Origin: Acidimicrobiales bacterium
GTDB lineage: Bacteria; Actinomycetota; Acidimicrobiia; Acidimicrobiales; CADCSY01
Direction of reading: 5' to 3'
Assembly: GCA_035512495.1 (NCBI GenBank)
Contig: DATKDW010000082.1
Location: 1 to 47,127 of the forward strand
Length of the DNA stretch: 47,127 nt
Under the pieces are notes generated by a model. It was not told the DNA's origin. It worked only from the letters and a program-made list of their open reading frames with translations, and did not search any database. The translations under genes and the position numbers were made by a program. Within the stretch, counting starts at the first letter, position 1, and each line of letters opens with the position of its first letter. This document shows, one piece after another, positions 41,234 through 41,376 of this stretch.

Positions 41234-41262
41234 TTGACCCCGTGGTCCCCGGGGGGTTCACT
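41234..41262 (+). promoter_or_regulatory. Promoter of the leu leader
   Basis: TTGACC (41234-41239), a 17-bp spacer and TTCACT (41257-41262). The next 7 nt lead to ATG 41270, so the transcript probably starts at the leader-peptide initiation codon. Confidence 0.55.
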
Positions 41263-41269
41263 ACGAGGG

Positions 41270-41317
41270 ATGCACGCGACCGCTCTCCTCGCCCGCAACC
41301 TCCTCCTCCTCGCCTGA
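41270..41317 (+). CDS. leuL: Leucine-rich leader peptide of the leuA attenuator
   Basis: 15 codons encoding MHATALLARNLLLLA, with six Leu codons, all CTC, in runs of two and four. Ribosome stalling at these codons when charged tRNA-Leu is scarce would alter folding of the RNA that follows. It ends immediately before two hairpins and 105 bp before leuA. GAGGG directly abuts the ATG and is too close to act as a ribosome-binding site, so leaderless initiation is more likely. Confidence 0.75.
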   Translation: MHATALLARNLLLLA

Positions 41318-41376
41318 GGCGAGCGCTCCCCGCGCTCGCCCCGACCTCCTGCGCCCACCGGGCCAGGAGGTCTCTT
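41318..41376 (+). terminator. leuA attenuator: hairpin plus terminator hairpin
   Basis: The first hairpin GGCGAGCGC/GCGCTCGCC (41318-41326 with 41332-41340) starts right after the leader stop. The second, GACCTCCTG/CAGGAGGTC (41343-41351 with 41364-41372), extends inward by GCCC/GGGC and is followed by TCTTGCTTCT. The second is the presumed terminator; a stalled ribosome would change which hairpins form. Confidence 0.65.

Follow-up and report, generated by a model that had tools for sequence, protein, structure and literature searches.

Upstream of leuA in this Acidimicrobiales bacterium lies a short leucine-rich open reading frame followed by two hairpins, which raises the questions whether the gene is governed by an attenuator with a leader peptide translated from the very 5' end of the transcript and, if so, how the ribosome would act on the terminator. 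We analyzed the window, that is, the whole stretch of 47,127 nucleotides, which is one contig of the source assembly (2.80 Mb in 97 contigs), together with related loci. A preliminary description had reported a 15-codon peptide with six CTC leucine codons, a 9-bp hairpin, a second hairpin, a T-rich tail and leuA, preceded by a promoter of the layout TTGACC-17-TTCACT-7-ATG. The arrangement is real, with every element where it had been placed and the promoter spacing exact (ATG at 41270):

41234..41239, + strand: -35-like hexamer TTGACC of the leader promoter, from the sequence (TTG kept in relatives)
41257..41262, + strand: -10-like hexamer TTCACT, 17-nt spacer after the -35 hexamer; atypical, without A at position 2
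41270..41317, + strand: leader peptide reading frame of 15 codons encoding MHATALLARNLLLLA, predicted to be leaderless; ATG at 41270, stop codon TGA at 41315-41317
41300..41311, + strand: regulatory run, four consecutive CTC Leu codons; two further CTC codons at 41285-41290, six in total
41318..41340, + strand: hairpin H1 (GGCGAGCGC/GCGCTCGCC), 9 bp, arms 41318-41326 and 41332-41340, directly 3' of the stop codon; predicted ribosome-gated control hairpin, from the fold and covariation
41343..41372, + strand: terminator hairpin T (GACCTCCTG/CAGGAGGTC), arms 41343-41351 and 41364-41372, 9 bp plus an inner GCCC/GGGC extension, with a bulged C; from the fold and covariation
41373..41384, + strand: T-rich terminator tail TCTTGCTTCT, interrupted; from the sequence
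41411..41415, + strand: Shine-Dalgarno-like AAGGA of leuA, from the sequence
41423..43114, + strand: leuA, encoding the long type of 2-isopropylmalate synthase (NCBIfam TIGR00970, 816 bits with the cut-off at 697)
start at 41227, divergent: maf, with 42 bp between it and the leader ATG

The segment from 41262 to 41420 folds better than all 200 of its shuffled versions (z = -4.5). A terminator scan returned one terminator-like site here against 0.1 expected, placed on the shorter inner stem at 41360-41373, and did not pick the full 9-bp T; the tail holds fewer U than those of many relatives. A separate feature of the T 3' arm is an AGGAGG followed by TTG at 41375 (41364-41377 in the window), the frame of which is continuous with leuA and would add 16 codons to it; this extension is probably a product of chance.

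Conservation of the leader peptide upstream of leuA

For comparison, we used the 80 leuA relatives listed among 256 confirmed ones, of which 6 with less than 150 nt of upstream sequence were left out, and 92 of a further set of 94 places, the two omitted being the window itself and the partial G197:C299. Dropping copies identical over the last 150 nt reduced the 167 upstream regions to 158 distinct ones. The closest among the relatives listed, L003, is 81% identical and is labelled uncultured Acidimicrobiales; others are labelled Acidimicrobiia, Ilumatobacteraceae or Microthrix, and some have labels of other phyla, possibly as names given in binning.

An automatic rule requiring at least three Leu codons in a run, a stop within five codons and an ATG or GTG in frame identified a leader in 144 of the 158 distinct upstream regions, the window counted, so that a leader reading frame rich in codons for the end product of the pathway is present in the window and in most of its relatives alike. 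The leaders are mostly 10-13 residues long and end in 3-4 Leu codons, one residue and the stop; this residue is Met (ATG) in 42 of the 144 and Thr (ACC, ACG, ACA or ACT) in 63. Two of the 14 regions that fail the rule, L097 and L141, still display two hairpins by eye; among the other failures, L080 has a Leu leader with the stop further off, L123 is incomplete, and L161-L163 have another type of leader. Because the identical order of parts recurs in relatives, the element is not a chance assembly, and comparison with related genomes, as the preliminary description had called for, thus bears out its identification of a leuA attenuator with a Leu-codon leader peptide and a terminator.

The other type of leuA leader was seen in L161, L162 and L163 (near the 3' ends) and in L079 and L081. 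It contains neither a Leu triple nor an obvious H1-T pair; examples are MSFLLELRLLYPAA (L162), MSFLLDLRLLSPAA (L163) and a leader ending in LGLRLNGGRRA in Rhodospirillaceae-labelled MAGs, each followed by the stop. The region upstream of leuA in Nocardioides sp. URHA0020 (L080) contains a leader of the LEU type, MMMRQLLLRCRSEV followed by the stop, an 11-bp stem (CCGCAGCGAGG/CCTCGCTGCGG) and, by eye, a TAGGCT-9-ATG arrangement; no terminator was seen in it.

Promoter evidence for a leaderless start

The relatives allow the leaderless start to be assessed across the class. The pattern nAnnnT ends 6-10 nt before the nearest in-frame leader start in 130 of 144 loci, compared to 14.6% at random positions, and the stricter TAnnnT does so in 99 of 144, compared to 1.6%; at 1300 other ATG or GTG triplets used as a control, the frequencies are 14.4% and 0.5%, respectively. 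The higher figures of 139/144 here and 54/54 for the further loci described below come from a rule that is free to pick a start with a -10 box, the unbiased values being 130/144 and 42/54; five of the 144 loci, including the window and L003, show no nAnnnT at 6-10 nt. The commonest gap between the -10-like box and the leader start is 7 nt. A TTG occupies the -35 place in 91 of the 139 loci with a -10-like box (6.4% in the control), with a spacer of 15-19 nt, most commonly 17. Motifs resembling a Shine-Dalgarno sequence precede the leader start in 14 of 144 loci, which is the chance level (10%), compared to 71 of 144 at the start of the leuA match.

In the accessible text of the study of mapped Streptomyces lividans promoters, the distance from the -10 box to the start averages 6.3 nt, with a range of 4-9 (PMC8079986). 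The corresponding combination, a -10 box 4-9 nt before the start and no Shine-Dalgarno sequence, is found class-wide, and the 7-nt spacing in the window agrees with it, although the hexamer itself is atypical. Given the position of the -10-like box in 130 of 144 loci and the chance-level frequency of Shine-Dalgarno motifs, the leaderless reading is well supported: judged from sequence patterns, the elements of this class are leaderless with high probability, and the leader in the window is probably leaderless as well, perhaps with a weak promoter.

Conversely, transcription could start further upstream, with the GAGGG directly 5' of the ATG, or another site, serving the ribosome. The poor -10 hexamer of the window and the GAGGG at 41265-41269 speak for such a leadered attenuator, as do two ilvB relatives, L202 and L207, that lack a -10 box at 6-10 nt from the nearest start. 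A strict sigma-70 scan of 41100-41450 also returned no promoters, which is explained by the missing A at position 2 of TTCACT. However, the GAGGG abuts the ATG and is too close to function as a Shine-Dalgarno sequence, the start of maf at 41227 leaves only 42 bp, and the relatives combine leaderless spacing with chance-level Shine-Dalgarno motifs, making a leadered start improbable.

The preliminary description had regarded a leaderless leader as a surprise, in view of the classical dependence on a ribosome-binding site, but leaders of this kind are already on record. Work by Canestrari from 2020 is reportedly among the publications on them. The accessible portions of the respective reports describe leaderless attenuator leaders for S. 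lividans leuA and leuS (PMC8079986), Corynebacterium diphtheriae ilvB (PMC5784534) and Sinorhizobium meliloti trpL (PMC7298713), as well as for C. glutamicum ilvBNC, where +1 lies one nucleotide from the leader start codon (PMC11857589, which also describes the leaderless attenuator leader of Morbach 2000).

Two abutting hairpins, one of them predicted to be gated by the ribosome

Both H1 and T have predicted energies below -9 kcal/mol in 142 of the 144 loci, although the hairpins were selected by best energy, a choice that favours finding them. In 125 of the 142, only 2-3 nt separate the start of H1 from the first stop-codon base, which means that stop and hairpin touch. The two hairpins are equally close to each other: the spacing is 0 nt in 70 of the 142 loci and 0-5 nt in 137, and at least five T are present among the 12 nt past T in 137. 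An upstream hairpin of -9 kcal/mol or better lies within 6 nt of the terminator in 143 of all 144 leuA elements, and one of -12 or better in 142; for 19 further terminators taken from these loci, a control that is small, the numbers are four and one, respectively.

In an alignment of 35 of 38 selected sequences (L026, L039 and L133, with a long or odd H1, were left out), 12 of the 16 pairs in H1 and T show two-sided changes and 92.3% of the cells are paired; sliding the partner cuts pairing below 48%. The covariation score is 0.350 compared to 0.184 for shuffled alignments, none of 500 shuffles being as high (the count covers 16 pairs, the covariance model 17). Together with its T-rich tail, this covariation supports the prediction of T as an intrinsic terminator before the first structural gene. 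We also observed that the loop of H1, although free to vary, is often CACATA, CCCATA or CGCATA (for example, in L031, L033 and L168).

When the nucleotides covered by a ribosome were blocked from pairing in the 142 loci, the predicted pairing of H1 was 0.93 in the free RNA, 0.95 when the ribosome occupied the second Leu codon and 0.006 when it was at the stop, so that by prediction the control structure depends on ribosome position. The predicted equilibrium pairing of T was 0.97 in all three states; the computation, therefore, shows no switch. Under this model, H1 would report the position of the ribosome, and pairing alone would leave T unconditional.

Search for an antiterminator helix

The trp, leu and his attenuators of Escherichia coli combine codons for the regulated amino acid with a control hairpin and a terminator, an overall logic that resembles the present one. 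They differ in that their leader has a ribosome-binding site and in that an antiterminator helix shares bases with the terminator. Such a pairing between the leader codons or the first hairpin and the second hairpin, which the preliminary description had proposed to look for, was sought in 142 loci and was not found.

In a duplex swap test, 31 segment pairs were compared with partners exchanged between the 142 loci. Pairing with the own partner was far better for the arms of H1 (z -18) and T (z -29); across the 31 pairs, apart from three T-loop pairs whose energies were meaningless, only these two hairpins clearly coevolve, with no third helix. Small deviations were observed for the stop/H1 5' arm with the T loop (z -4.1; -1.32 kcal/mol with the own partner versus -1.11) and for the Leu run with the H1 loop (z -2.8) and with the H1 3' arm (z -2.6), and in the opposite direction for the H1 3' arm with downstream sequence (z 3.4); they were judged too weak since only 10 swaps were made. 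Kissing between the H1 and T loops was likewise not detected, the longest complementary run of the extended loops being 1.92 for both own and swapped partners.

A classical attenuator could nevertheless be envisaged in which the Leu codons pair with the T 3' arm, or the stop and H1 5' arm with the T 5' arm, to the exclusion of the terminator. In the window, CCTCCTCGCC (41305-41314) and GGCCAGGAGG (41361-41370) are 90% complementary, the duplex being predicted at -15.3 kcal/mol compared to -25.3 for T; furthermore, as far as the available text goes, the base stem of the LEU element is formed by Leu codons and a purine-rich arm (PMC1262725), and Corynebacterium ilvBNC has an overlapping antiterminator (PMC11857589). 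Across the 142 loci, however, these two candidate helices reach a swap z of only -0.5 and -1.7, respectively. The real leaders pair with the T 3' arm less well (-8.0) than leaders with normal Leu codon usage would (-9.3). Extension of T into the H1 3' arm was no better than with swapped H1 arms or shuffled tails. On this evidence, a classical attenuator with an exclusive antiterminator helix is unlikely. The element may work like a trp-type attenuator; it is not filed as one because there is no coevolving third helix in the 142 loci, no extension of T, and no selection on pairing between the Leu run and the T 3' arm.

Proposed mechanism

The explanation that we favor, and consider likely, is a leucine-responsive transcription attenuator with a leader translated from a leaderless 5' end, in which H1 keeps T open. 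The 5' end of the transcript would be the ATG at 41270 or lie no more than about two bases from it, so that the ribosome would load on a 5'-terminal AUG. With ample leucyl-tRNA, the ribosome would reach the TGA and its footprint would cover the 5' arm of H1, preventing this hairpin from forming; the adjacent T would then close and leuA would be off. With leucyl-tRNA in short supply, the ribosome would stall on the CTC run and H1 would stay folded; its base, 0-6 nt from that of T, would keep T open in the exit channel of RNA polymerase, and leuA would be transcribed. By analogy with established attenuation logic, leucine starvation would turn leuA on. Speaking against this explanation, published mutations of S. 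coelicolor leuA gave results that classical attenuation does not account for, according to the accessible part of PMC1262725.

How H1 would act on T is the less certain part. A terminator hairpin has its base at the upstream end of the RNA-DNA hybrid, and about 5-6 nt of RNA run through the exit channel. Since it is the contact between the hairpins that stays conserved, and an abutting duplex would have to enter the exit channel, we tentatively propose, as a possibility that we regard as somewhat doubtful, contact antitermination: the hairpin abutting at 0-6 nt would be a doorstop, and a leaderless-loaded ribosome at the stop codon would remove it. Our inference of a block through contact, as opposed to an alternative pairing, has only negative and geometric support.

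A partly competing reading, possible but not the one that we expect, is that H1 is mainly a pause hairpin that synchronizes RNA polymerase with the ribosome, like the trp 1:2 hairpin, timing alone being decisive. TGYG is a consensus pause motif, and it occurs within 24 nt past H1 in 68 of the 142 loci compared to 19.7 expected, and in 64 of these 68 the Y follows H1 by 11-14 nt (12 nt in the window, where the bulged C of T is the Y); 39 of the 68 have an unpaired Y. A pause that gives time for leaderless initiation has been proposed for C. glutamicum ilvBNC, according to the accessible part of that report (PMC11857589). Nevertheless, the motif is absent in 74 of the 142 loci, related loci are not independent, and pausing alone does not explain the failure of T at low leucine. 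Pausing by H1 is compatible with the attenuator in which H1 keeps T open; the two are not mutually exclusive. The bulge itself, a single pyrimidine in T of the window (41343-41372; CTG-Y-GCC) that gives rise to TGYG 12 nt past H1, is odd for a terminator stem and may mark a pause site.

A second copy upstream of leuS and occurrence in other loci

A covariance model search of the genome itself identified two elements at E < 1e-9, upstream of leuA and leuS, with nothing else better than 0.9; the leuS copy was absent from the sequences of the model. The second copy (G000:C19:27338-27418, L175) encodes the leader MNVVVINDLLLT, followed by the stop, behind TATGCT-7-GTG, an ideal leaderless promoter, and the downstream gene encodes leucyl-tRNA synthetase (a 260-aa piece has TIGR00396 as its best family). 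With a threshold of E <= 0.001, 166 of 296 genomes sampled from the class contain the element, as do 38 of 296 sampled from the phylum, 15 of these 38 lying outside the class.

Among 55 further loci that were picked away from long leuA, the 49 assigned by BLAST comprise 41 of short leuA, six of leuS and two of ilvB. The H1-T spacing is 0-6 nt in all 54 measurable ones, and a -10-like box precedes the nearest start in 42 of 54. The two ilvB leaders, MTTTSFVLILM and MPCQLNLVLIT, each followed by the stop, contain Val, Leu and Ile codons and do not look leaderless. An additional covariance model match (5.8e-6), L205 in G349, has codons resembling those for branched-chain amino acids (VLLIT) and no leader start by the rule; its longest downstream reading frame resembles prephenate dehydratase by eye.

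That the region is a plain terminator preceded by a chance reading frame, with no regulation, is highly improbable, considering that the Leu run and the stop distance are conserved, that the hairpins covary and that the same element precedes both types of leuA, leuS and ilvB. Collectively, the element is real, conserved and functionally plausible.

Codon choice in the leaders

CTT accounts for 42% of the Leu codons in the leaders compared to 7% in leuA of the same loci, and CTG for 15% compared to 43%, whereas the CTC frequencies are roughly equal (38% and 35%, respectively); the window leader uses CTC only. The enrichment of CTT fits sensing by a single isoacceptor reading CUY, which we take to be tRNA-Leu GAG.

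Relationship to known leader elements

Among known systems, we compared the present element with several described in reports represented here by their accessible portions. The LEU element of actinobacterial leuA (Seliverstov et al. 2005, PMC1262725), the closest counterpart among leuA leaders, likewise consists of a Leu-run short reading frame upstream of leuA followed by a conserved RNA structure, but that structure is a pseudoknot in which Leu codons and the leuA Shine-Dalgarno sequence form the base stem, with no terminator described in the available text. Here, minimum free energy and consensus folds give two simple, abutting hairpins that end in an intrinsic terminator; the AAGGA at 41411, the Shine-Dalgarno-like sequence of leuA, lies outside them and is distinct from the purine arm of T.

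In S. lividans, LeuL1 (leuA) and LeuL2 (leuS) are Leu-run leaders, leaderless by mapped starts; LeuL2 is followed, as here, by a hairpin and uridines, whereas LeuL1 has no typical terminator, and the accessible text describes no abutting H1/T pair for either (PMC8079986). The C. glutamicum ilvBNC leader and the Corynebacterium ilvB-II motif are similar in that transcription starts one nt from the start codon and the control hairpin adjoins the terminator, but the antiterminator and terminator of Corynebacterium ilvBNC share GCC and exclude each other by pairing, as far as described in the parts available (PMC11857589, PMC10272879), and no such pairing was found here. The upstream reading frame of Mycobacterium tuberculosis ilvB1 is also rich in codons for branched-chain amino acids, and some 26 nt are masked by a ribosome at its stop codon, which blocks an upstream structure; unlike here, the antiterminator proposed in the text at hand is pairing-based (PMC13236596).

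Rfam 15 at the gathering score yielded no matches in the window and 10 loci (one of them L080 of Nocardioides), and literature searches for the lineage, covering few subscription papers, and Rfam returned no description of the present element. Thus, the leaderless reading is well supported and not novel in kind; the unusual part is the abutting two-hairpin design without an antiterminator.

Implications

Terminator-linked leaderless leucine attenuation is hereby extended to a lineage for which no description was found in the literature searched, with a biosynthetic gene and the leucyl-tRNA synthetase gene predicted to be controlled alike. The element also bears on the LEU element puzzle: the relatives studied here carry an explicit terminator, so that the transcriptional read-out is directly assayable. 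Given that no conserved antiterminator pairing was found, the length of the H1-T spacer is predicted to control antitermination. If contact antitermination were true, the two states would share no bases, unlike those of trp-type attenuators and most riboswitches, and a switch made of two independent hairpins would operate upstream of leuA, leuS and ilvB across a bacterial class.
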